Positions 1,449-32,641 of a stretch of DNA of 32,641 nucleotides are shown one piece after another. Each line of letters starts with the position of its first letter. Position 1 is the first letter of the stretch. Location: contig JACPQF010000064.1 in NCBI GenBank assembly GCA_016190625.1, positions 1 through 32,641 on the forward strand. Direction: 5' to 3'. The notes under the pieces are model-generated. The model made no database searches. It was not told the DNA's origin and was given only the letters and a program-made list of their open reading frames with translations. Origin of the DNA: Chloroflexota bacterium (GTDB lineage Bacteria; Chloroflexota; Dehalococcoidia; JACPQF01). Both the position numbers and the translations under genes were made by a program.

Positions 1449-3740
1449 TCATCTCGTAGCCGCGGGACCCGTCTCCACCTGAGTGAACAGGGTGCTGCAT
1501 TCCTCGTCGACGCAGGCTGGACGTGGGCGGAGGACCGCCTGAAGCGCCAGGTAGAGCAGGGGCAGCACGCCGACGACGATGAACAGCACGTCCCCCGGCA
1601 GCCGCGCCCATTCAAGGAAGTGAATCACCGGCTGGAGAATGAAGGCCAGCTCCCGGGCGTGCCAGTAGCCTACGCTATAGGCGTCGTAGAGCTGCAGCAG
1701 CCCGATGGGAAACAGGTTGGCAAAGGACATCCAGGCGAGACCCAGGTTCAATGAAATCACCGATATGCCGGCTAGACGGTCGCTCCAGCGTTCGGGGCGA
1801 ACGAGATAGCGCAGGCAGAACAGCGTCAGCCCGATCGCCAGCATGCCGTAGACGCCAAACATGGCTGTGTGCCCGTGGTTGGCCGTTAGGGTGGTGCCGA
1901 TCTCGTAGTAGCTCACGATGGGCAGATTGATCAGGAAGCCGAACATGCCGGCGCCGAGGAAGTTCCAGAACCCCACGGAGGCCAGAGCCCACACCGCCCA
2001 GCGATGGGGGAATCGCTGCCCCGCCACCTCGATCGCCCCCAGGCGAAGGAAGCTATAGGCCTCGAAGGTCAGCAGGGTCAGGGGCACGACCTCCATGGCG
2101 GAGAAGAAGGCGCCCGAAGCCATCACCGGCGCCGGCGCGCCGTTGAAATAGAGGTGATGCAGAGTGCCGATGACCCCGCCGATGGAATAGAGCAATATAC
2201 TGAGGTAGATCACTCTCGTGCCGGTGCGCTCGCTCACCACGCCCAGCAGAACGAAAATGTAGGCGACGGCCGCGGTGGTGAACAGCTCGAGGAAATCCTC
2301 CACCCAAAGGTGCACCACCCAGAAGCGCCAGAAATCGGTTACGGCGAAGGTCGAATCCCGCGTGGCCAGGAGGCCGGCGGCATAGAACACGGGGAGGGCG
2401 AAGGCGGCGTAGAGAAAGAGGTAGGGCATGTTGCCGATGCTCTCGTTTCTCAGCCGTCCGCGCAGGCCCCGGAACAGGATCAGCCCCCAGATGAGCAGGC
2501 CGGCGACCAGCAGGATCTGCCAGAAGCGTCCGAGGTCGAGATACTCCCAGCCCTGAGCGCCAAACCAATACCACAGCGTATTGCCGAGCAGGTTGCGCAT
2601 GCCCGCCGCCTCCCCCAGCAGGCTGCCGAACACTACAACTGCCACGGCGCCGAGCAGAATGTAAGCGAGGGCGGCCTGGCCGCGGGGCTCACGCCGGGCA
2701 ATCAGCGGGGTGATGAAGATACCGGTGGCGAGATAGGCGGCCGCCACGAAGAAGATAGCAAGCTGCACGTGCCAGGTGCGACTGAGCATGTAAGGAATAT
2801 ACGGCGTCAGATCGATGCCAAAGAAATTGGACGGCTCGGCCCGGTAGTGGGCATTCAGACTGCCTACCAGCGTCTGGAGCAGAAAGAGCAGGGCCACGAC
2901 GAGGAAGTATAGCCTGGTCGCCCGCTGTCCGCCCGTCAGCGACACATCAGCCGGCGGGCGAAAATGAACCTGGCGCCAGGGCTCACCGCGCCAGCCGAGC
3001 CAGTCGTAGCGGCCAAACAGGAAAAGAACCAGGCCAAGGCCCCCAAGGAGGGCGAGAATGCTGAGGATGCTCCAAAGCAGGGCATCTGCCGTAGGTGAAT
3101 TGCCGGCAAGCGGCTCGGGCGGCCAGTTGTTCGTATAGGAGTAGGCGGCGCCTGGCCGCTGGGCCGTCGTGGTCCAGGCCGCCCAGGCGATGAAGGCCGT
3201 CAACTGCCGCAGCTCTTCGTCGCTCTGGATGTAGACGGCCGGCACCGGTCCGGCCGCTCGCGGGTTTCTCAGCGCCTCGGCAAAGACCGGCTGCAGCTCC
3301 TGGTAGGCCCGGGCCTGGCCGGCGCTGAGCTTGAGGGTGCCCGTGCCCTCGTCGTAGTTGTTCTCTCGCAGTTCCCGGCGAACGCGCTCGGCCGGGGATT
3401 CACCGCTCGACCCGCTCTTGTAGAAGTCCAGCATGTTGAGAGACTGGCGATGCAAGTAATCGGCCGTGAAATCGGGCCCCAGGTAGGCGCCATGGCCGTA
3501 AATGGTCCCATATTCCATCAGACCGTACTTCTGGAACACCCCCTGGCCGCTCCTGACGTCGGCGCCGGTGAAGACCGTCGCGCCCACGGAATCGACCACC
3601 TTGGCCGGGATCGGCGGCTGGTCCCGATAGATAAGAAAGGCGAGTATTCCCAGGCCGGTGAATCCTATCAGAAAAGTAAGGACCGAGGCTTGGAGCCAAA
3701 GACGAGAGATAACCATGCCGCGTCGGGGCTCGCCAACCAT
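1449..3740 (-). CDS. norZ: Quinol-dependent nitric oxide reductase (single-subunit qNOR/NorZ type)
   Basis: 763 aa with multiple TM helices. N-terminal periplasmic region GADVRSGQGVFQKYGLMEYGTIYGHGAYLGPDFTADYLHRQ. Heme-copper oxidase superfamily motifs RTWHVQLAIFF, VVHLWVEDFLE, GTLHHLYF and AMEVVPL. RBS GGGAGGT upstream. Confidence 0.9.
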   Translation of the reverse strand: MVGEPRRGMVISRLWLQASVLTFLIGFTGLGILAFLIYRDQPPIPAKVVDSVGATVFTGADVRSGQGVFQKYGLMEYGTIYGHGAYLGPDFTADYLHRQSLNMLDFYKSGSSGESPAERVRRELRENNYDEGTGTLKLSAGQARAYQELQPVFAEALRNPRAAGPVPAVYIQSDEELRQLTAFIAWAAWTTTAQRPGAAYSYTNNWPPEPLAGNSPTADALLWSILSILALLGGLGLVLFLFGRYDWLGWRGEPWRQVHFRPPADVSLTGGQRATRLYFLVVALLFLLQTLVGSLNAHYRAEPSNFFGIDLTPYIPYMLSRTWHVQLAIFFVAAAYLATGIFITPLIARREPRGQAALAYILLGAVAVVVFGSLLGEAAGMRNLLGNTLWYWFGAQGWEYLDLGRFWQILLVAGLLIWGLILFRGLRGRLRNESIGNMPYLFLYAAFALPVFYAAGLLATRDSTFAVTDFWRFWVVHLWVEDFLELFTTAAVAYIFVLLGVVSERTGTRVIYLSILLYSIGGVIGTLHHLYFNGAPAPVMASGAFFSAMEVVPLTLLTFEAYSFLRLGAIEVAGQRFPHRWAVWALASVGFWNFLGAGMFGFLINLPIVSYYEIGTTLTANHGHTAMFGVYGMLAIGLTLFCLRYLVRPERWSDRLAGISVISLNLGLAWMSFANLFPIGLLQLYDAYSVGYWHARELAFILQPVIHFLEWARLPGDVLFIVVGVLPLLYLALQAVLRPRPACVDEECSTLFTQVETGPAATR

Positions 3741-8068: not shown

Positions 8069-9043
8069 TCACACCTCTATGGCGACGATCTTCTTGGTAA
8101 TCAGGAAGCCGATGATCTCGAGCACGGCGGCTATGCCCAACATCAGGCGGCCCACCGTCGTAAAGAAAAGCATCTCGATGTAACTCCGGTTCACCATCGA
8201 GATGACGATAACCATGAAGATGGGGAGAGCACCAATGACGTAGCCGGACAGCCTCTCCTGAGCGGTGAGGGTCCGGATCTCCCGGAGAATGCGTATTCTC
8301 TCTCTGATGGTGTGGCCGATGGTGTCCAGCACCTCAGACAGGTTCCCGCCCACCGAGCGCTGCACTAGCATAGCGGTAACTACCAGATCGAGGTCCGCGC
8401 TGCGCACCCTTTCCGGCAACTTAGCCAGGGCCTCCTCGGTGGTCGCGCCCATGCGGATCTCGTGGAGGACGCGGTCGAACTCCTCCGAAATGGGCGACGG
8501 CATCTCCCGTGAGACAGCCTCCAGGCCCTGCATGAGGCCGAAGCCGGACCGCAGGGAGTTGGCCATAAGAGACAAGGAATCCACTAGTTGATCGTTGAAC
8601 TTCTTGACCCGCTTCTGCTCGCTGTGCCTGACGTACAGCTTCGGGAGGTAGAAACCGCAGGCGCCCAGAAGCAGACCGGCGATAACCGTCCTGGCCCCAA
8701 TAGTGCCGACGACGAACAGCGTCAAGGCGATAAGCCAGCGGATCAGCACGTACTCGCCGACCCGCAGGGGCACGGCGGCGCGGGCGAGGTCCAAGGCTAT
8801 TTTATCCCCCAGCCCACCACGGGCGAGAAGCCTGTTCATCCCCTCGATCCCGCTTAGGCGACGCTGGCGAAGGACGCCGGAGGCTAGCCCCGACAGTCCG
8901 ACAGAACCCATCTCGACGCCATAGTGACCAAGCCTCGCCTTTACCAGTTGCCGCTCAGGCCGGAGCAGCCGGTAGAGAGCGTAAAAGAAGGCCGTGCCTG
9001 CCACGAAGACGGCGAAGGGGATAACCATGATAAGGCCATTCAT
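8069..9043 (-). CDS. tadB: Tad pilus inner-membrane platform protein TadB (T2SS F domain)
   Basis: 324 aa. Motifs [29 protein letters not shown] and [26 protein letters not shown]. Start overlaps the tadA stop. Confidence 0.9.
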
Positions 9044-10401
9044 ACTCTCGGTCCCCTTTCCAGAGCGAAGATGTCAGGAGACAGAAAGATGCCAGCCTGC
9101 TCGAGTTTCTCCGTGAACTTCGGCCGGATGCCCGTGGGTCTCATGCGGCCAAGCACCTTCCCGTCCTTGTCCACGCCCAGTTGTTGGAAGACGAAGACGT
9201 CCTGGAGGGTGATGATCTGGCCCTCCATTCCCACCACTTCGGTTACGTGGGTAATCCGGCGGCTGCCATCACGCATACGGCTTATCTGGACGATCAGGTT
9301 GATGGCCGAAGCCACCTGCTCACGGATGGCCCGGACCGGCAGGTCGAAGCCAGCCATTAGGACCATGTTCTCTATGCGAGCAAGAGCATCGCGGGGAGAG
9401 TTGGCGTGGACGGTGGTGAGCGAGCCGTCGTGGCCGGTGTTCATAGCTTGCAGCATATCGAAGGCCTCGCCACTTCGTACCTCACCGACGATTATCCGGT
9501 CGGGCCGCATGCGGAGGGCGTTGCGCACGAGGTCGCGCTGAACTATCTGTCCCTTACCTTCGATGTTGGACGGCCTCGTCTCCAGCCGCACGACGTGTCT
9601 CTGCCTGAGCTGGAGCTCCGCCGGGTCCTCCACGGTCACGATGCGTTCGGCGACGGGGATGAAGGAGGACAGGACGTTCAGCAGCGTGGTCTTGCCGGTG
9701 CCGGTGCCGCCGGAAATCACCACGTTCAGTCTCGCCTCGACGCAGGCCGCCAGGAACCTCGCCATATCGTGGGTGAACGTGCCGAAGTTCACCAGGTCGT
9801 CCACGGTAAAGGGATCCTTGGCGAACTTGCGGATGGTGATCGTAGGGCTGTCGAGAGCCAGAGGAGGGATTATGGCGTTCACGCGCGAGCCGTCCTGAAG
9901 ACGGGCGTCCACCATCGGGCAGTTGTCGTCTATGCGCCTTCCCAACGGCGAAACGATCTTCTCGATTACCCGCATTATGTGAGACTCATCCCGAAATACG
10001 CGGTCGCTTTGGTGGATGACGCCAGCTCGCTCGAAGAAGACCTGCTGGGGACCGTTGACCATGATCTCGCTGATGCTGGCGTCCTCGAGGAGGGGCTCTA
10101 GCGGGCCAAGACCGAGCACTTCGTCGGCGATCTCCGTTACCAGCCGGACCCGTTCGTGTCTGGCCAGCGGCACCTCTTCGGCAACCAGCAGGGAGCGCGC
10201 CGCTTCTTCGACCTCACCTCTCAGCGCCTTAGGGTTCTTGCCGTTGAGACGGGCCGGATCGATCTCCTTTATTAGGCGCTCGTGTATCCGAAACTTGAGG
10301 TCGAGAAACTGGTCGGCCGGGCCATTCGAATCTGACTGTTGAGCCTCTGTCTTGGGAACCGTCCGGTTGGTTTGGGAACGCTCCAATAGCAGGGACATCA
10401 T
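9040..10401 (-). CDS. tadA: Tad/CpaF secretion ATPase
   Basis: Walker [13 protein letters not shown], Asp box and Walker B region [40 protein letters not shown]. Confidence 0.95.
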
Positions 10402-15037: not shown

Positions 15038-15217
15038 TTAGACGGTCCCCGTGCTAGTCCCGATAAGGCCGCCAATAGCGGTGAACATGGCGCCGATGTT
15101 TGTGCCGAGAAGGGTTGCTCCACCAATAATAGCGATGGCAATAAGTGCTGCGAGCAGGGCATACTCCGTGGCGTCCGCTCCCTCTTCCTCGAGGACCAAT
15201 CGTCTTATCATTTCCAT
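15038..15217 (-). CDS. Flp-type major pilin 1
   Basis: MEMIRRLVLEEEGADATEYALLAALIAIAIIGGATLLGTNIGAMFTAIGG: Flp prepilin with G|A processing site and Glu-Tyr. Internal ATG at 15215-15217 is preferred. Confidence 0.9.
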   Translation of the reverse strand: MEMIRRLVLEEEGADATEYALLAALIAIAIIGGATLLGTNIGAMFTAIGGLIGTSTGTV

Positions 15218-15296
15218 TTGTAGCGACTCCTCCAACCTTTTTTGTTTGGGTTTACCGTCGGGCTTTGGTCTTAGCACCTGATCGATGGCTGGACGG

Positions 15297-15373
15297 CCCC
15301 CTCGACAGACCAAGGCAAAAAGACGCATCCTTCCCTCGAAGGATGCGCTCCTGCCCGCCCGTTGCCGAGGGGG
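15297..15373. repeat. Structured element B downstream of pilin 2, homologous to element A
   Basis: Outer arms CCCCCTCGACA / TGCCGAGGGGG; inner hairpin CGCATCCTTC-CCTC-GAAGGATGCG (15324-15347). Confidence 0.75.
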
Positions 15374-15413
15374 CTTGGAAGGGGCGAATCAAGCCAGAGG
15401 GCAGATGCACCGC

Positions 15414-15596
15414 CTAGACGGTCGCCGACTTGGTGCCGATGAGACCACCGATTGCGGTGAACATGGAGCCGATGTTTGTGCCCAGAAGGGTTGCACCACC
15501 GATGATAGCAATAGCGATAAGTGCCGCGAGAAGGGCGTACTCAGTGGCGTCCGCTCCCTCTTCCTCGATGACCAGCCTTTTTACCAGTTCCAACAT
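15414..15596 (-). CDS. Flp-type major pilin 2
   Basis: MLELVKRLVIEEEGADATEYALLAALIAIAIIGGATLLGTNIGSMFTAIGG. Confidence 0.92.
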   Translation of the reverse strand: MLELVKRLVIEEEGADATEYALLAALIAIAIIGGATLLGTNIGSMFTAIGGLIGTKSATV

Positions 15597-15704
15597 TGTC
15601 TTCTCCTTCCACCTGTTTTTTTGGTTTTGCCCTTGTGTTCCTGGACTTCTCTTGCCGGCGTCCCCTGGGAGAAAGCCGGGGGTCCACGCCTGTGGGCGAT
15701 TCAG

Positions 15705-15720
15705 CGTTCACCCGTGAACG
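15705..15720. terminator. Hairpin immediately downstream of pilin 3
   Basis: CGTTCAC-CC-GTGAACG, 4 bp past the pilin 3 stop codon. No clear U-tract, so terminator function is tentative. Confidence 0.4.
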
Positions 15721-15723
15721 GGA

Positions 15724-15903
15724 TCACACCGCGCTGGCTTGGGTGCCGAGGTAACCGCCCAGGGCCGTGAAAAAGCCCCCGATATTCTGCCCTACCAGAG
15801 CGGCACCCCCAATAATCGCTATGGCGATCAGCGCCGCTAACAGCGCGTATTCCGTAGCGTCAGCCCCCTCTTCCTCTCTGAGCAGCTTACCGATCAGCAC
15901 CAT
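15724..15903 (-). CDS. Flp-type major pilin 3
   Basis: MVLIGKLLREEEGADATEYALLAALIAIAIIGGAALVGQNIGGFFTALGG. AGGGGG RBS precedes the ATG at 15901-15903. Confidence 0.9.
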   Translation of the reverse strand: MVLIGKLLREEEGADATEYALLAALIAIAIIGGAALVGQNIGGFFTALGGYLGTQASAV

Positions 15904-15984
15904 TTTCGTCACCCCCTTTCCGCTGTGGTCACCTATCCCTGCGTTTCACCCTATTAGAGGCCGATACTGGGAGGAAAATACGCT

Positions 15985-22352: not shown

Positions 22353-22727
22353 CTACCTCGTCGGACTTGCCGCCGTTGGGAGCGTTGGCAGCATCTGTGC
22401 GTCGAAGACCACTCTCTTGCTTTCGTGGTCACGGATGAATGCTTTTACTACGAAGGTGCCTGGACCCGGGAGCTGGAGCTGGAGCTGAAACGCAAGCACG
22501 ATTCTTTGGGATTCGGCCTGCCCTATGGTTGGGGGGCGGCCTGCGTTGAAGTTCAAGCCTAGTTTGGCTAGTTCGACGTTGTCCTGATTCTCAACACTGA
22601 GCGCAAGTGGGTGATTCATGTTGGTCGCATTCCATGGGACCAAAATCCCCGCCGCAAGAGACATGGACTGCTGTTGGGCAAAGTCGGCCACATAAATACG
22701 ATCCCAACCGCCGCCCATCATGTACAC
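22353..22727 (-). CDS. DUF6941-like protein, apparently lacking its first ~15 residues
   Basis: YMMGGGWDRIYVADFAQQQSMSLAAGILVPWNATNMNHPLALSVENQD...FNAGRPPTIGQAESQRIVLAFQLQLQLPGPGTFVVKAFI. GTG start; an in-frame TAG lies shortly upstream. Confidence 0.55.
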   Translation of the reverse strand: MYMMGGGWDRIYVADFAQQQSMSLAAGILVPWNATNMNHPLALSVENQDNVELAKLGLNFNAGRPPTIGQAESQRIVLAFQLQLQLPGPGTFVVKAFIRDHESKRVVFDAQMLPTLPTAASPTR

Positions 22728-22740
22728 CCGGCTCTCACTC

Positions 22741-22769
22741 TTGACATGGCGCTATGGCGCCAATATAAT
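22741..22769 (+). promoter_or_regulatory. Exact-consensus sigma70-type promoter for the RHS protein
   Basis: TTGACA (22741-22746), 17-nt spacer, TATAAT (22764-22769). Spacer contains the direct repeat TATGGCGC-like ATGGCGC/TATGGCGC. Confidence 0.75.
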
Positions 22770-22895
22770 GGGCGGCGTCACACCCCTTTGCCGGTTTCCT
22801 TGATAACATATATCATTTTCTGGCAGAGCGACGAAGTGATCGATCCCGCCCAGCGGGACCGCCCTCGACCTCTGCCAGGGGACAGAAGGAAAACT

Positions 22896-25800
22896 ATGAA
22901 CGCCAATGCTGGCCGAACGGCGGTTCTCTCCTTCCTTGCCCTCGGCGCGCTTGCCCTTCTCCTCGCCTTCGCCTCCGGACCGGCTGGCGACCTTCTTGCC
23001 CGCAATGCCACGGGGCCGGTCCTCGCGACGGTCGACGTGAACATCGCCGACAGCGGCCTCGACCCCGCCGTCATCACGGTGACGGTGGGAAGTCAGGTCG
23101 TCTGGCACAACTCCACCGCCGTTTCCCACACGCTCGCCGCTGGCCAGCCCTACCGGGTCTACCTGCCAGTGGCTGTCAGGGCCTATACCGGGAGCGCCAA
23201 CCAAGCTCAGACCGTGGGCCGGGAATCGCCCGTCGCGCCCAGCACCGCCAGCCTCGGCGGCACGCTGGCACCCGGCGGCGTCTACACCTACACATTCGCC
23301 AGCGCCGGCTCCTTTCCCTACTACCTGTCCACCCTGCCCCGCGCCGACGGCCGGGTCGTCGTGCAGGAATCGCCGGCCACGGCAACCGCCACTGCCACGG
23401 CAACGACAACCGCCACGGCGACATCTACGCCAACCGCTACTCCCGGCGGACTGCCGGCCGACCCGGAGACCCAGGCTTCCGCCGTGGACCAGAGCCAGAG
23501 CACCGTGGTGGGCGAGGTCACCTCCTTCCTCTACACCGGCAGCAATCCCATTCAAACCGGGGTCGTCTCCGGCACCATCGTCATCACCCGGGCCGCCGTG
23601 CTCCGAGGGCAGGTCCTGACGGCCGATAGCCAGCCGTTGACCGGGACGGTGATGACCGTAGTCGACCATCCGGAGTTCGGGCAGACCCTGAGCCGGGCCG
23701 ACGGCATGTTCGACCTCGCCGTGAATGGCGGCGGCAGCCTCACCGTCAGCTACGCTAAGAATGGCTACCTGCCCGCAAGGCGTCAGGTCACCGTTCCCTG
23801 GCAGGATTACACCTGGCTGCCGGACGTCGTGCTGACGTCCCGGGACGTCAACGTCACGACCGTCGACCTCACGTCCAGCTCGCCGGTTCAGGTGGCGAGA
23901 GGCTCCGTCATCTCCGACGCCGACGGCCTGCGGCAGGCCACGGTCCTCTTCCCGCAGGGCACCGGCGCCGTGATCACCCTTACCAGCGGCGCCACCCAAA
24001 CCCTAACCAGCCTCAATGTGCGGGCTACCGAATATACGGTGGGCGACAACGGGCCCAAAGCCATGCCCGCCCAGTTGCCGCCCAACAGCGCCTACACCTA
24101 CGCCGTCGAGCTCGGCGTGGATGAGGCCGAGGCCGCTGGCGCCATCGGTCTCCGCTTCAGCCAGCCCCTGCCGGTCTACGTCGAGAACTTCCTCAGCTTT
24201 CCCGTGGGCATCACCGTGCCGGTTGGCTATTTCGACCGGTCGCGGAACGCCTGGGTGCCCAGTGACAACGGTCGGGTGATCGGCATCCTCACTCCTACTC
24301 TCGGCCTGGCCGAGATCGACGTGGACGGGAGCGGCACGGCGGCCATCAGCGCCACCCTGGCGGCGCTGGGAATCACCGACGCCGAGCGCCAGCGGCTGGC
24401 CGCCCTCTACGGCCCCGGCCAGAGCCTCTGGCGTTGGGCGGTCCGCCACTTCTCGGCCTGGGATGCCAACTGGGGCTGGGGGCCGCCGGCGGACGCCCAG
24501 CCGCCGACTAACGACCCACCCCGACCCGTCGACAAGGGCCACCAGTGCGATTGCGAGAGGGGTTCGCTCGTCGAGGTCCAGAACCAGATCCTCGGGGAGA
24601 CGCTGGAGCTGGTGGGGACGCCGTTCGACCTCAACTATCGCAGCGACCGGGTGGAGGGGTACGACGCCGCTTACTGGCTGGATATTCCCCTGAGCGGCGG
24701 CAGCGTCCCGGCGAGCCTCGTCCGGATCGACCTCGAGGTGGCGATCGCCGGGCGGCTGTTCAGGCAGAACTACGCCAGCGCGCCCAACCAGACCGCCACC
24801 TTCGTGTGGGACGGCCTCGACGCTTACGGGCGAGCGGTGCAAGCAAGGCAGACAGCCACCGTGCGCGTCGGCTACGTCTACCGGGGCGTGTACCAGCGGG
24901 TGGAGCGCTTCGGCTACAACGGCAACGGCACCCCCATCAGCGGCAGTCGGACACGGCGGGAAGTCACCCTGTGGCAGGGCTTCTACGTGAACGTGGGCAC
25001 AGTGCAGTCGCTGGGACAGGGTCTCGGCGGCTGGACTCCCGATATCCAGCACGCCTACGACCCCCTCGACCACGTCCTCTATCTGGGCGATGGCTCACGC
25101 CGCGGCGTGGGAGTTACGGCCTTCGTGGTAAGCAGGTTCAGTTTGGGGGGCTTCACTCTCGGAAGGGCAGTGGGTATAGCCCCGGGGGCCGATGGCAGCC
25201 TGTACGCCGCCGATGACCAGTACCACCGCGTCGTTAGGATTAGCGCTAGCGGTATTGTCACCGGCTTTGCTTCCGGCTACAACCCCTACGGTTGTGGCCA
25301 GAATGTCGGCGATGGGGGACCGGCTCACAACGCTTGCCTCTATTATCCTTATGACGTTGCCTCGGGCCCCGACGGCAGTCTTTACATTGCCGACTCTGGC
25401 AACGTTCGCATTCGCCGGGTCGATGCGAGCGGGATCATCACCACCGTGGCACGCGTTTCCACCTCGCGCCTCGCCGTCGCTCAGGACGGCTCTTTGTACT
25501 TCGACGTCTGGGGGAGCAGCTACTATTCTAAACTTGTTCGACGCCTGGGTCCGGATGGAATCATTAGAACTGTGGCCGGCACCGGAGCTTACGGCGGACC
25601 GCTGGGCGACGGGGGGCCGGCCACTGAGGCGTACCTCAGCGCGGGTATCGGCGGCCTTGCCATCGGGCCTGATGGTAGCCTCTACATCTCCGACAGGGAT
25701 CAGCATCGTGTTCGCCGTGTAACCCCGGACGGCATCATCAACACGGTCGCCGGGACCGGCAGCTACGGGTTCAGCGGCGACGGCGGGCCCGCCACGGAAG

Positions 25801-28800
25801 CCCGCCTTAGTTCACCTCAATCCATTGCCGTCGCGCCTGATGGCCGACTCTTCATCCGCGACGGCGGGAACAAACGCATTCGCGTGGTTGCCACCAATGG
25901 AATCATAACCACTCTGGCCGGCAATGGGTCTGCTTCGTACAGCGAAGGCGTCCCCCCGGCGACAACTGGCGTCGGGGATTACGGCGGTCTCGCCATGGGG
26001 CCTGACGGCAGCCTGTACTTTGCCCAGGGGGACCGGATTCGCCGCATATTCCCGCCCCTGCCGGGCTTCTCGGCTGGCGATCTGCTGGTTCCCTCGGAGG
26101 ATGGCACGCTCGTCTACCGGTTCAACCCCGCCGGCCGCCACTTGCAAACCCTGAGCGCCCTCACCAGGGCCGTCGTGCACGAGTTCGGCTACGACAGCGC
26201 CGGCCGCCTCGTCCAGATTCAGGACGGCGACGGCAATACCACCACCGTCGAGCACGATGGGAGCGGCAATCCGACCGCCATTGTCGGCCCCTATGGCCAC
26301 CGCACCACCCTGACCGTCGACGCCAACGGCTACCTCGCCAGCGTGGCCAATCCGGCGGGCGAGACCACCCGCCTCGCTTATGCCGAGGGCGGGCTGCTCA
26401 CCAGCCTTACCGATCCCAAAGGCAACACTCATTCCTACAGCTACGACAGCCGCGGCCGGCTCGCTCGCGACGCTTCGCCGGCCGCCTCGGGCAGCCTCCA
26501 GACCCTAAGCCGCACGGAGATAACGGCCGGCTACGAAGTAACCCGCACCACCGCCCTGAGCCGCACCACCGCCTACCGGGTGACCACCTCCTCGTCAGGA
26601 GTACAGACCGGGCGCAATACCCTTCCCGACGGCGCTCAGAGCCAGAAGCAGACCGTCCCGAACGGCACCACCGTCGCCCTCAGCCCGGAAGGAGTGAGAA
26701 GCAGCCGGGTTGAAGGACCGGACCCCCGCTTCGGCATGATGGCGCCCCTCGACAGCTCCCGGCTCATCACCACGCCCCTCGGCCTGGCGATGTCGGCCAG
26801 CGTGGCCCGCACCGCCACCCTGACCAACGCCGCCAACCTCTTGAGCTTGAGCCGTCTCAGCGAGACGGTCACCATCAACGGCCGGGCGTTCCACAGCGCC
26901 TTCCTCGCCCCCAGCCTGACCTTCACCGCCACGTCGCCGCTGGGGCGGCAGGTCACGACGACGGTCGACAGCCAGGTCCGGCCCACCGGCTACGCCGTCC
27001 CCGGCCTCGACCCCCTGAGCTTCGCCTACGACGCCCGCGGCCGCCTCATCAGTGCGTCGGCCGGCAGCGGCGCCGAGGCCCGCGCCGTCACCTACACCTA
27101 CGGCGTCAGCGGCTACCTCGCCAGCGTCGCCGACCCCCTGGGACGCACCGAAAGCTACGGTCGCGACCTAGCCGGGCGGGTCGTCACCCAAACCCTGTCC
27201 GATGGCCGGGCCACCGGCTACGCCTACGACGCCAACGGAAACGTGGTCGCCGTCACGCCCCCGGGCCGGCCGGCTCACACCTTTGGCTACGACTCTCTCG
27301 ACCAGACCGCGGTCTATACGGCGCCCACCGTTGGCGGTCTCACCACCACCCGCTACACCTACGACGCCGACCGGATGCTCACCCGCATAGACCGCCCCGA
27401 CGGCTCCACAGTCGACCTCGCCTACGACGCCGCCGGGCGTCTCGTAACTGTAACCCATCCTTTGGGCGCCATCGGCGTGGGCTACGGCATCACCGGCAGC
27501 CTGCCCCTCACCATCGCCGCGCCGGGCGGCATCACCCTGGCCAACAGCTTCGATGGCGCGCTGCTGACCCGCCAGGCCCTGACCGGACCGGTCTCCGGCA
27601 CGGTAAACTTTGGCTACGACAGCTTCTTCCGGGTGGCCAGCCTCGGCGTGGGCGCCAGCGGTCTGGTCAGCTTGACCTACGACGCCGACGGCCTCCTCGT
27701 CCGCTCGGGAGACCTGTCCCTCGGCCGCGACGCCCGCAACGGTCTGGTGGTGAGCACCACGCTCGCCGCCGTCACCGACACCTACGGCTACAGCGGCTTC
27801 GGCGAGCTGACCAGCCATCGCGCCATCACCACGACTGGTGGTGCCGCCCTCTACGACGCCCGGTACGCCCGCGACCGCCTCGGCCGGGTCAGCCGGCTGA
27901 CGGAGACCGTCGGCCTGACGACCGCGGTTTACACCTACGCCTACGACCTCGCCGGCCGGCTCATCACGGCCACCATGGACGGCGCCGTGGTGGGCGCCTA
28001 CACCTACGACGCCAACGGCAACCGCCTGACCTACGCCGGCCAGTTCCCCGCCGTCGCTGCGGCGACCTACGACGACCAGGATCGCCTGCTCGCCTACGGC
28101 GCCGCCGTCTACACCTACACCGCCAGCGGCGAGCTCCGGCGCAAGGTCGCCGGCTCGCAGACCACCGCCTACGAGTACGACGCCCTCGGCAACACCGTGG
28201 CCGTCACCCTTCCCAACGGCACGACCATCGGCTATCTGGCGGACGGCCAGAACCGGCGGATCGGCAAGCGGGTGAACGGGACTTTGACCGAGGGCTTTCT
28301 CTACCAATCCGGCCTCCAGCCCATCGCCGAGCTGGACGCAACCGGCCAGATCGTCAGCCTCTTCGTCTACGGCAGCCGGGCCAACGTGCCCGATTACCTG
28401 GTGAAGGAGGAAACCACCTACCGGATCGTGGCCGACCACCTCGGCAGCCCCCGGCTGGTGGTGAACGCCCAAACCGGGGCGGTGGCCCAGCGGCTGGACT
28501 ACGACGAGTTCGGCCGGGTCCTGAGCGACACCAATCCCGGCTTCCAGCCCTTCGGCTACGCCGGCGGCCTCTACGACCCCGACACCGGCCTGGTGCGCTT
28601 CGGGGCGAGGGACTACGACGCCGAGACCGGCCGCTGGACGGCCAAGGACCCCATCGGCTTCGCTGGCGGCGACACCAACCTCTACGCCTACGTGAGGAAC
28701 GACCCCATCAACCGCGTCGATCCCTCGGGCCTCGACCTCAGGCTGGTCAGAATGAGTCCGCTCGCGCAGATGACTCAGCTAGCCCAAAGTCCGCTTATGC

Positions 28801-29120
28801 AGATGAACATGCTCGCCCAAAGTCCGTCCGCGAAGCTCACCGATGCCCAGGCGATGGGCCTCCAGTTATTTAACAACGAGGGCGTGCTTACTAATGTGCC
28901 GTGCAAGGCGGATGGAAAGGACCCAAAAAAGAGGGGATTCATCCGGTCGGTAGGTGAGGCTCCGGATTTCAGTCAAATGATGGAGGGCCAGAACTCACTG
29001 GAAGTAGGGTCCTTGCCTTTCCAAATCGGTGAGATGCATGAGGCCATCGGACAAGTGACGCGTATACAGGCAGCGATGGAGAGTCGGCAGATGGCCATCC
29101 CTCTCACCATTAAAGATTAA
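22896..29120 (+). CDS. Giant secreted RHS/YD-repeat protein: degenerate cupredoxin, Thr/Pro linker, NHL repeats, YD shell, short variable C-terminus
   Basis: AAGGA RBS at 22886-22890 before the ATG at 22896 (MNANAGRTAVLSFLALGALALLLAFASG signal peptide). Five or more DGSLY..D...VRR units; many Y(D/T)..G.L YD repeats; core end DPIGFAGGDTNLYAYVRNDPINRVDPSGL. The first 95 residues of the ORF-track entry are upstream read-through. Confidence 0.92.
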   Translation: MNANAGRTAVLSFLALGALALLLAFASGPAGDLLARNATGPVLATVDVNIADSGLDPAVITVTVGSQVVWHNSTAVSHTLAAGQPYRVYLPVAVRAYTGSANQAQTVGRESPVAPSTASLGGTLAPGGVYTYTFASAGSFPYYLSTLPRADGRVVVQESPATATATATATTTATATSTPTATPGGLPADPETQASAVDQSQSTVVGEVTSFLYTGSNPIQTGVVSGTIVITRAAVLRGQVLTADSQPLTGTVMTVVDHPEFGQTLSRADGMFDLAVNGGGSLTVSYAKNGYLPARRQVTVPWQDYTWLPDVVLTSRDVNVTTVDLTSSSPVQVARGSVISDADGLRQATVLFPQGTGAVITLTSGATQTLTSLNVRATEYTVGDNGPKAMPAQLPPNSAYTYAVELGVDEAEAAGAIGLRFSQPLPVYVENFLSFPVGITVPVGYFDRSRNAWVPSDNGRVIGILTPTLGLAEIDVDGSGTAAISATLAALGITDAERQRLAALYGPGQSLWRWAVRHFSAWDANWGWGPPADAQPPTNDPPRPVDKGHQCDCERGSLVEVQNQILGETLELVGTPFDLNYRSDRVEGYDAAYWLDIPLSGGSVPASLVRIDLEVAIAGRLFRQNYASAPNQTATFVWDGLDAYGRAVQARQTATVRVGYVYRGVYQRVERFGYNGNGTPISGSRTRREVTLWQGFYVNVGTVQSLGQGLGGWTPDIQHAYDPLDHVLYLGDGSRRGVGVTAFVVSRFSLGGFTLGRAVGIAPGADGSLYAADDQYHRVVRISASGIVTGFASGYNPYGCGQNVGDGGPAHNACLYYPYDVASGPDGSLYIADSGNVRIRRVDASGIITTVARVSTSRLAVAQDGSLYFDVWGSSYYSKLVRRLGPDGIIRTVAGTGAYGGPLGDGGPATEAYLSAGIGGLAIGPDGSLYISDRDQHRVRRVTPDGIINTVAGTGSYGFSGDGGPATEARLSSPQSIAVAPDGRLFIRDGGNKRIRVVATNGIITTLAGNGSASYSEGVPPATTGVGDYGGLAMGPDGSLYFAQGDRIRRIFPPLPGFSAGDLLVPSEDGTLVYRFNPAGRHLQTLSALTRAVVHEFGYDSAGRLVQIQDGDGNTTTVEHDGSGNPTAIVGPYGHRTTLTVDANGYLASVANPAGETTRLAYAEGGLLTSLTDPKGNTHSYSYDSRGRLARDASPAASGSLQTLSRTEITAGYEVTRTTALSRTTAYRVTTSSSGVQTGRNTLPDGAQSQKQTVPNGTTVALSPEGVRSSRVEGPDPRFGMMAPLDSSRLITTPLGLAMSASVARTATLTNAANLLSLSRLSETVTINGRAFHSAFLAPSLTFTATSPLGRQVTTTVDSQVRPTGYAVPGLDPLSFAYDARGRLISASAGSGAEARAVTYTYGVSGYLASVADPLGRTESYGRDLAGRVVTQTLSDGRATGYAYDANGNVVAVTPPGRPAHTFGYDSLDQTAVYTAPTVGGLTTTRYTYDADRMLTRIDRPDGSTVDLAYDAAGRLVTVTHPLGAIGVGYGITGSLPLTIAAPGGITLANSFDGALLTRQALTGPVSGTVNFGYDSFFRVASLGVGASGLVSLTYDADGLLVRSGDLSLGRDARNGLVVSTTLAAVTDTYGYSGFGELTSHRAITTTGGAALYDARYARDRLGRVSRLTETVGLTTAVYTYAYDLAGRLITATMDGAVVGAYTYDANGNRLTYAGQFPAVAAATYDDQDRLLAYGAAVYTYTASGELRRKVAGSQTTAYEYDALGNTVAVTLPNGTTIGYLADGQNRRIGKRVNGTLTEGFLYQSGLQPIAELDATGQIVSLFVYGSRANVPDYLVKEETTYRIVADHLGSPRLVVNAQTGAVAQRLDYDEFGRVLSDTNPGFQPFGYAGGLYDPDTGLVRFGARDYDAETGRWTAKDPIGFAGGDTNLYAYVRNDPINRVDPSGLDLRLVRMSPLAQMTQLAQSPLMQMNMLAQSPSAKLTDAQAMGLQLFNNEGVLTNVPCKADGKDPKKRGFIRSVGEAPDFSQMMEGQNSLEVGSLPFQIGEMHEAIGQVTRIQAAMESRQMAIPLTIKD
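28755..28820 (+). repeat. Two 33-bp tandem units encoding SPLAQMTQLAQ / SPLMQMNMLAQ
   Basis: AGTCCGCTCGCGCAGATGACTCAGCTAGCCCAA followed by AGTCCGCTTATGCAGATGAACATGCTCGCCCAA. Confidence 0.8.
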
Positions 29121-29840: not shown

Positions 29841-31520
29841 ATGACCAAAGCAGGCGGTCACAGATGGCTGGATAGCTTACATATCTCCGCAGTTCGACCG
29901 GTTTCCATGCTACGCATACGAGGCCATCGCCTCCCGTGGCCGAGAACCCCGGGGCTCAGGATCCTCTGTTTGCTAAGCACTATTCTCCTCATGGCTGGCT
30001 TCTTCTGGTTGTCTCAGCCGCCTTCCAGCACGCTGACCGCCAGCCCTGTCGTTCAAGTCTGCATCGCTCTGGACGGCTCAGGCAGTATCGCGAATGCAGA
30101 CTTCAACACTATGAAGGAAGCACTGGCGACGGCTATCGAGGATAGCAACGTTGTGCCTCCGGTTGGCATCGTGGAACTTACGGTGCTCCAGTTTGGTGGA
30201 GTGATCTATGAAACGCCGATCATCGTCGAGCCGGTCGTAATAAGCAGCACGGCGACGGCGAGCGCAGTGGCCAATGCTATTCGGGCCACGGCAAAACTGG
30301 GAGGGTTCACTCCAACGCATGCTGCCATCGATTCTTGCACACAGAAGATCACCGGCTCACCCAACTTCGCGGTCGCCGTGAAGCAGGAGATCAACATCTC
30401 CACCGACGGCGATCCCGACAATCAGTCCTGGGTCATCACATCCCGGGACAGTGCGGTGGCAGCGGGCATCGACGAGGTGGATTTGGAAGCCATCGGCAGC
30501 TCTCCCTCGATTGACAAGATGCTGCAGATTGCCTGGCCTCGACCGGGGTATGTTGCTCCCCCCTTCGACGGCGGTGGGTTTGTCATTCAGGTTAGCACCT
30601 TTGCCGATTACGCCAGCGCTATCCGCCAGAAGCTGACGGAGATTATTCCCAGGCCAACTAGCACTAGCACCTCGACGCCGACTCAGACGGGCACCCCCAC
30701 GGAGACGGGTACTGCCACCTCCACTCCGACGGTGACCAAAACGCCGACGGTGACCAGCACTCCCACAACAACGTCCACGCCAACGGCAACCAGTACGCCG
30801 ACGGCAACCGGGACCAACACCGCCACGCCAACGGCAACGCCCACATATCGTAGCCTTTACTTGCCCCTGGTCATGAAGCCGGTGCCAACCCCCACTGCCG
30901 CGTGGGTCACCATCATTCAAGAGGATTTTGAGGGTGCGTTTCCGGGGGCCTGGCGAGTTTTCGATAATCGCTATGGGTACGGGGAGTATTACTGGTCCAA
31001 GAGCGATTGCCGGCCCTATGCCGGTTCCTATAGCGGCTGGGCTTTCGGTGGCGGTGCCGATGGGAGCAACCTACCATGTGGGAGTTGGTACCCCACTTAC
31101 GCCGATAGCTGGATGGTGTACGGTCCCTTTAACCTTGCCAATGCCCAACGTGCTGAACTGACCTTCCAGGAGTGGAACCATCTGCTTGTCAATCCGGTTA
31201 GCATCGACCTAAGAGTCGCCGCCTTCTCGATTGATGGCACCCGTTTCTATGGTTGGAGCGGCGAAGGGCAGGTATCGCCCACCTGGAACACTTTCAACTT
31301 TGACCTTAGCAACGTGCCGACCCTGGGCAGTATCTTGGGCCAGCCGAACGTTTGGTTCGCCCTCGTGTTCCGAAGCGCCGAGTGGTACAATACTTACGAA
31401 GGACTCTACGTCGATAATATCCTCTTGAGAAAGCTTGTATCAGGGACCGCCGCCGCATCTCCGCCAGCCGGCCAAAGCCCCGGTAACCCGGTCTATCTGG
31501 TACGTCCGCATTCGCCTTAG
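29841..31520 (+). CDS. Secreted von Willebrand factor A (DUF1194-like) protein with Thr/Pro linker, YLPLVMK motif and C-terminal jelly-roll-like domain
   Basis: MIDAS-like VCIALDGSGSIANADF; TPTxT linker; SLYLPLVMK; EDFEGAFPGAWRVFDN...YEGLYVDNILLRK. Confidence 0.8.
   Translation: MTKAGGHRWLDSLHISAVRPVSMLRIRGHRLPWPRTPGLRILCLLSTILLMAGFFWLSQPPSSTLTASPVVQVCIALDGSGSIANADFNTMKEALATAIEDSNVVPPVGIVELTVLQFGGVIYETPIIVEPVVISSTATASAVANAIRATAKLGGFTPTHAAIDSCTQKITGSPNFAVAVKQEINISTDGDPDNQSWVITSRDSAVAAGIDEVDLEAIGSSPSIDKMLQIAWPRPGYVAPPFDGGGFVIQVSTFADYASAIRQKLTEIIPRPTSTSTSTPTQTGTPTETGTATSTPTVTKTPTVTSTPTTTSTPTATSTPTATGTNTATPTATPTYRSLYLPLVMKPVPTPTAAWVTIIQEDFEGAFPGAWRVFDNRYGYGEYYWSKSDCRPYAGSYSGWAFGGGADGSNLPCGSWYPTYADSWMVYGPFNLANAQRAELTFQEWNHLLVNPVSIDLRVAAFSIDGTRFYGWSGEGQVSPTWNTFNFDLSNVPTLGSILGQPNVWFALVFRSAEWYNTYEGLYVDNILLRKLVSGTAAASPPAGQSPGNPVYLVRPHSP
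30655..30845 (+). repeat. Degenerate ACG/ACC-rich minisatellite encoding the Thr/Pro/Ser linker
   Basis: Repeated (A)CGCCGACGG(C/T)(A/G)ACC-like units. Confidence 0.7.
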
Positions 31521-31553: not shown

Positions 31554-31582
31554 TTGACATGGTGGCGAGCAAGTGCTAGTAT
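31554..31582 (+). promoter_or_regulatory. Sigma70-type promoter upstream of the Cys-rich peptide
   Basis: TTGACA - 17 nt - TAGTAT. A second candidate, extended -10 TGCTATACT, lies at 31732-31740. Confidence 0.55.
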
Positions 31583-31806
31583 GATGCGGGATCGACGCAG
31601 ACGGTTGCTCCCGACACTTCTTGCTGGGAGACTAGACGGTCAGTATTAGTACGCTCAACTGAACTTCGCACCTGACGTACTAACAAGGGTCTTTTCATCG
31701 CCATAATGACACGCTCGCTGACACGCGAATCTGCTATACTGACCTCACTCAGGCCGAGGCATGCTGCCCTGACCGATGGGCCCGTCGGGCAGAGGTGGGA
31801 AGCCTA

Positions 31807-32028
31807 ATGGCGAACTTCCAAGTAACAAAGGAGAAAGCCGTGAAAGTCAAGACCAACCTAAAGGCAGGCTTCAAGCTGCCACCATTCTGTGTCCCCTACT
31901 CTCATGACGAGGCCAAGAACCCGCTCGGTTCCAACAGGTGTAGTTCGGACACGGATTGCGACGGCTGCAGGGTGTGCAATAGCAACGGCTGGTGTCATGG
32001 TCGGGGCGATAAGGAAAGCATGATATAG
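31807..32028 (+). CDS. Small Cys-rich peptide, knottin-like or RiPP-precursor-like
   Basis: MANFQVTKEKAVKVKTNLKAGFKLPPFCVPYSHDEAKNPLGSNRCSSDTDCDGCRVCNSNGWCHGRGDKESMI. AGGTGGGA precedes the ATG. Six Cys with C-x16-C-x5-C-x2-C-x2-C-x5-C spacing. Confidence 0.65.
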   Translation: MANFQVTKEKAVKVKTNLKAGFKLPPFCVPYSHDEAKNPLGSNRCSSDTDCDGCRVCNSNGWCHGRGDKESMI

Positions 32029-32154: not shown

Positions 32155-32382
32155 TTAGGGTGCGATTCTCGCCAGGAAACTGAGGATCGCTTCCACATAC
32201 TGGGGATAGAGGTCGAGGGCCTCGCCAAGGCTGGCGTGGATGATGGCGTCGCCAAGCACGTCGTACTCATGGACCAGCCGGTTGCGAAGTCCGGCCGAAG
32301 GGGCAAGTCTAAGGGCGAGATCCATGTCGAGGGCAACTTGCCAATGAAGCAGATCGATCTGCTCTATGTTGATGTGTCGGCC
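32155..32382 (-). pseudogene. HepT-like (DUF86/HEPN) remnant, C-terminal part only
   Basis: Minus-strand open frame GRHINIEQIDLLHWQVALDMDLALRLAPSAGLRNRLVHEYDVLGDAIIHASLGEALDLYPQYVEAILSFLARIAP*. HEPN motif RNRLVH is present; an in-frame TGA lies upstream and the N-terminal half is missing. Confidence 0.65.
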
Positions 32383-32573
32383 TCACTCCCGCTCCGGAGT
32401 TTCCAGACAATCTGCGCTTTCCCGCTTGGATGCTACCTGACCCAAACCAATGCATACTGGCACAATATCATATAGCTATAAACAGCCAGTTCTTCCGATA
32501 GTGTTACCGGCGGAATTGTGTGCCGTCGAGTCGGCAGGGATAGTGCGCGGCCGGGTCTGGGTGATTATGGTTT

Positions 32574-32595: not shown

Positions 32596-32641
32596 CTAGT
32601 GGGAATGCCGATGGGCTGTCAGGGTCTTGGAGAAGAGCCTC

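Follow-up and report, generated by a model that had tools for sequence, protein, structure and literature searches.

The stretch of DNA analysed here (the window) is 32,641 nucleotides long and makes up one whole contig of a Chloroflexota genome of 3.18 Mb, which is 65% complete and divided among 160 contigs. Close to its right end, on the forward strand, an open reading frame runs from an ATG at 31807 to a TAG at 32028 and encodes a peptide of 73 residues, MANFQVTKEKAVKVKTNLKAGFKLPPFCVPYSHDEAKNPLGSNRCSSDTDCDGCRVCNSNGWCHGRGDKESMI, with six Cys residues at positions 28, 45, 51, 54, 57, and 63. An earlier sequence-only reading of this DNA had described the frame and its six Cys residues in the same way, and the sequence it quoted is present in 31807-32028. 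The gene is flanked on one side by that of a von Willebrand-type A protein (29841-31520) and on the other, on the opposite strand, by a truncated HepT remnant; the contig ends 613 bases past the reading frame, and the stretch around the peptide gene is lower in G+C than the preceding genes. The neighbor on the left, on the forward strand, is of the VWA/DUF1194 type; it contains a linker rich in Thr and Pro as well as a YLPLVMK segment, which is common in Chloroflexota surface proteins and hints at the organism. The neighbor on the right (32155-32400, reverse strand) matches the HepT-like ribonucleases (PF01934, E=6e-7) at profile positions 62-120, which make up their C-terminal half; it has the RNRLVHEY motif, and no N-terminal half is found in frame.

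Several other genes were noted elsewhere on the contig. The forward-strand gene at 22611-29120 encodes a protein of 2169 residues with the domain order of the bacterial teneurin-like proteins (TTR, FN-plug, NHL, and YD-shell/RHS repeats), and the tail that extends beyond its RHS core at the C-terminus has no family assigned. On the reverse strand, three closely similar short pilin-like reading frames (EEGADATEYALLAALIAIAIIGG) stand in a row at 15038-15912 and adjoin a Tad-type secretion gene set, with its T2SSE ATPase at 9040-10401. Further to the left, at 1449-3740 on the same strand, there is a quinol-type nitric oxide reductase NorB with an N-terminal cytochrome c-like domain.

The reading frame of the peptide gene is intact, and its G+C content is 0.69-0.70 at the third codon position, compared with about 0.46 at the other two. 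Where translation begins can be read in two ways. The ATG at 31807 is preceded, at a spacing of 9 nt, by GAGGTG (31792-31797), a possible ribosome site, and an in-frame GTG is located upstream of this ATG at 31795. A GTG at 31840 would give a shorter product of 62 residues (31840-32028, MKVKTNLKAGFKLPPFCVPY...) beginning with MKVKTNLKAG, and the AAGGAG found 6 nt before it (31828-31833) is, by its sequence, a perfect and better-spaced ribosome site than the GAGGTG of the ATG. The GTG may thus be the true start, which would shorten the N-terminus, with the ATG also having its candidate ribosome site. Some 225-260 bases upstream of the gene there is a promoter-like site on the forward strand, TTGACA-17-TAGTAT with an extended TG (31554-31582), as a consensus match only.

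The only Pfam family returned for the peptide is SVN (scytovirin, PF20888), with E=1e-10 and a score of 42.4 bits, 15 bits above the curated cut-off of 27 bits; NCBIfam and PHROGs returned no match. Residues 29-66 (31891-32004) align with profile positions 52-89, which constitute the second of the two scytovirin domains. The search of all solved structures led to the same protein: the best match was scytovirin (2jmv, 2qsk, and 2qt4; E=4.4e-17), and both of its domains aligned to the peptide separately and without gaps. The peptide is 51-55% identical to the two domains, and 19 columns of the alignment are the same in all three sequences. In small proteins so rich in Cys, a match of this kind could reflect the Cys pattern itself, and the real score was therefore compared with those of shuffled sequences, 3000 of each kind, on a profile built from both domains of scytovirin. 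No shuffle of any kind equals the 42.8 bits of the real peptide: full shuffles reached at most 15.2 bits, those with the Cys positions kept constant no more than 14.7 bits, and those with C, G, D, N, and P kept constant no more than 38.5 bits. Since the Cys-fixed shuffles fall far below the real score, the match is one of homology and not a coincidence of the Cys pattern. Judged by its sequence, the peptide is a homologue of scytovirin, with one domain where scytovirin has two. It had been called an orphan; in the sense of family, that description no longer holds.

The four intra-domain Cys residues (45, 51, 57, and 63) align gap-free with those of scytovirin and keep the C-x5-C-x5-C-x5-C spacing. 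The tandem layout with its inter-domain disulfide is absent, as the peptide has one domain and a Ser (Ser32) at the position of the inter-domain Cys; it should be said that the two-domain layout defines scytovirin the protein, not a single SVN domain. The remaining two Cys residues are relocated or additional ones. Cys28 (31888-31890) lies four residues upstream of the inter-domain position, and Cys54 (31966-31968) replaces an Ala of scytovirin, CDGARTC having become CDGCRVC. The intra-domain pairing in the crystal structure of scytovirin corresponds to 45-57 and 51-63 in the peptide, and by alignment these four Cys residues would make the two bonds of the scytovirin core. Cys28 and Cys54 would then probably pair inside the same domain, in place of the inter-domain bond of scytovirin. 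The predicted 28-54 bond is of the I-IV type, and together with 45-57 and 51-63 it would complete the I-IV, II-V, III-VI connectivity of a cystine knot.

The knottin-like Cys spacing described in the sequence-only reading, with six Cys residues and a C-x5-C ... C-x5-C core, is borne out. The likeness to squash trypsin inhibitors drawn from it stands as far as the spacing goes but not as homology: in the solved-structure search, these inhibitors appear at E values from 0.0088 to about 1, 14 orders of magnitude behind scytovirin, and Pfam gives no knottin family for the peptide, only SVN. Single-sequence structure predictions were of low confidence, with a mean pLDDT of 58 for the full peptide and 64 for residues 24-68; in the latter model the core (residues 44-63) reached about 80, and the region of Cys28 was below or near 50 in both. 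In Foldseek searches with these two low-confidence models, the nearest structures were squash inhibitors, led by the two-disulfide form of MCoTI-II (2po8), and scytovirin (2qsk) was among the top matches of both, all at E values of 0.045 or worse. The fold matches may weakly suggest a common two-disulfide core and have no bearing on the third bond. One could nevertheless imagine a knottin-type protease inhibitor, or another cystine-knot effector, which has kept the scytovirin scaffold and lost the binding of sugar. The weak sequence matches to the inhibitors, their place at the head of the fold matches, and the fact that the six Cys residues could be paired as in a knot all speak in its favor. 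However, the far better match to scytovirin depends on residues other than Cys, the squash core reaches no more than 8.1 bits when scored with the scytovirin-domain profile, and the inhibitory loop of the squash peptides lies N-terminal to the matched part, with no counterpart shown in the peptide. We consider such an inhibitor unlikely.

Residues 1-26 (31807-31884) lie outside the scytovirin match and form a Lys-rich extension. It has no hydrophobic signal core, in agreement with the earlier remark that a Sec signal is lacking. The same extension had also been likened to the leader of a RiPP precursor, in which case a modifying enzyme or a peptidase-ABC exporter would act on the Lys-rich part, and the scytovirin-like part would be the core peptide. 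The general form does fit, a short non-Sec extension that stops ahead of the first Cys, with a Cys-rich domain following at the C-terminus, and the genome encodes four SPASM proteins. These are all on other contigs, however, and no Peptidase_C39 match was found in the 65%-complete genome. Among the reading frames read and the families scanned on the contig (the larger genes in part), no RiPP-modifying gene, leader peptidase, or exporter linked to the peptide was recognised up to its end at 32641, just as no modification enzyme or transporter had been noticed before. None of the other genomes searched, in sets of 198 and 301, contains the leader motif KxKTxxKAG. The RiPP reading has nothing in its favor except this shape, and we regard a RiPP precursor as improbable.

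Among several hundred genomes of its phylum, the peptide turned up in this one only. We found no second copy in the source genome and no relative in a protein search of 198 genomes, and in the sense of copies the word orphan remains apt. Three overlapping sets, made up of 295 relatives, 399 genomes from the phylum, and 393 from the class, contained no SVN match above the cut-off; the nearest genomes compared share only the class with the source genome. Two weak SVN matches within the phylum were rejected, as one runs through stop codons and the other is antisense to a long frame for a membrane protein. When genomes of all phyla were scanned, once with the full peptide and once with an alignment of three scytovirin sequences, pattern matches came up but no confirmed relative; the patterns were narrow, and the result is therefore weak evidence of absence. 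Searches of plasmid and phage collections with the peptide and one scytovirin domain found nothing. These searches support calling the peptide rare in its phylum; to call it found nowhere else would go beyond the evidence. For one of the neighboring genes on the contig, relatives exist in genomes belonging to this class, which mildly favors the place of the contig in the bin.

This isolation, taken with the position next to the truncated remnant of HepT at the end of the contig and the lower G+C than in the preceding genes, could be expected of a gene acquired by horizontal transfer that is now decaying or unexpressed. Against this are the intact frame with its high third-position G+C, the good ribosome site, and the retention of the conserved residues of the family, and we think decay quite improbable.

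Scytovirin consists of two domains, each with two intra-domain disulfides, joined by a fifth bond between Cys7 and Cys55 (PMC8004682). Its sugar site includes three aromatic residues per domain (PMC8004682). It binds tetramannose (PMC5422485; PMC8004682) but not chitin (PMC5422485), and its SD1 domain by itself both binds and shows activity (PMC9034974). Each scytovirin domain holds exactly three aromatic residues, Y, W, and F, from which we infer the triad; by alignment, the Tyr is kept in the peptide (Tyr31), the Phe has become a Trp (Trp62), and the Trp has become a His (His33). By analogy with scytovirin, the folded domain would most likely bind an oligosaccharide through its aromatic residues. 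Our preferred reading is that the gene probably encodes a small, single-domain, carbohydrate-binding lectin of the scytovirin family. The replacement of the scytovirin Trp by His33 and the low confidence of the structure models speak against it. The Trp-to-His change also makes a shift of specificity away from tetramannose plausible, and the sugar bound may be a different one.

A bolder form of the lectin reading would make the peptide a natural bacterial cystine-knot lectin: a self-contained, fully knotted SVN domain that arose when the inter-domain Cys was relocated and a partner for it appeared, that bridges the scytovirin and knottin folds, and that carries a non-Sec N-terminal extension, maybe for some export route. 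This is a tentative idea, and the odds are against it as a whole. Scytovirin has attracted study as a mannose-binding lectin with antiviral activity, which only SD1 of its two domains retains. A natural form with one domain and a possible third disulfide that completes a knot would, if true, give glycan binding a scaffold of smaller size and perhaps greater sturdiness. The SVN family would then also extend beyond the cyanobacteria, with its fold linked to the knottins.

Of the known systems, scytovirin itself (SVN, PF20888; PDB 2jmv, 2qsk, and 2qt4), a cyanobacterial mannose-binding lectin from a different organism, Scytonema varium, is the closest. The two have in common the four intra-domain Cys residues, the motifs EA(K/N)NPxGxNRCS, CDGxR, and SxG(F/W)C, and aromatic residues at two of the three aromatic positions of scytovirin. 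They differ in the single domain of the peptide, the Ser in place of the inter-domain Cys, the new Cys28 and Cys54, the Trp-to-His change in the triad, and the Lys-rich N-terminal extension. The squash trypsin inhibitors (MCoTI-II and EETI-II) are alike in having six Cys residues and a C-x5-C ... C-x5-C core, but the spacing of Cys III-IV-V is x2, x2 in the peptide and x3, x1 in the inhibitors, and the first loop has 16 residues against 6. Scytovirin has also been likened to the hevein-type chitin-binding peptides (PMC8004682), which are likewise small, Cys-rich, sugar-binding domains. For the peptide, the searches of Pfam and the solved structures brought up neither a family nor a structure of the hevein type, and the CC pair of hevein is absent from it.
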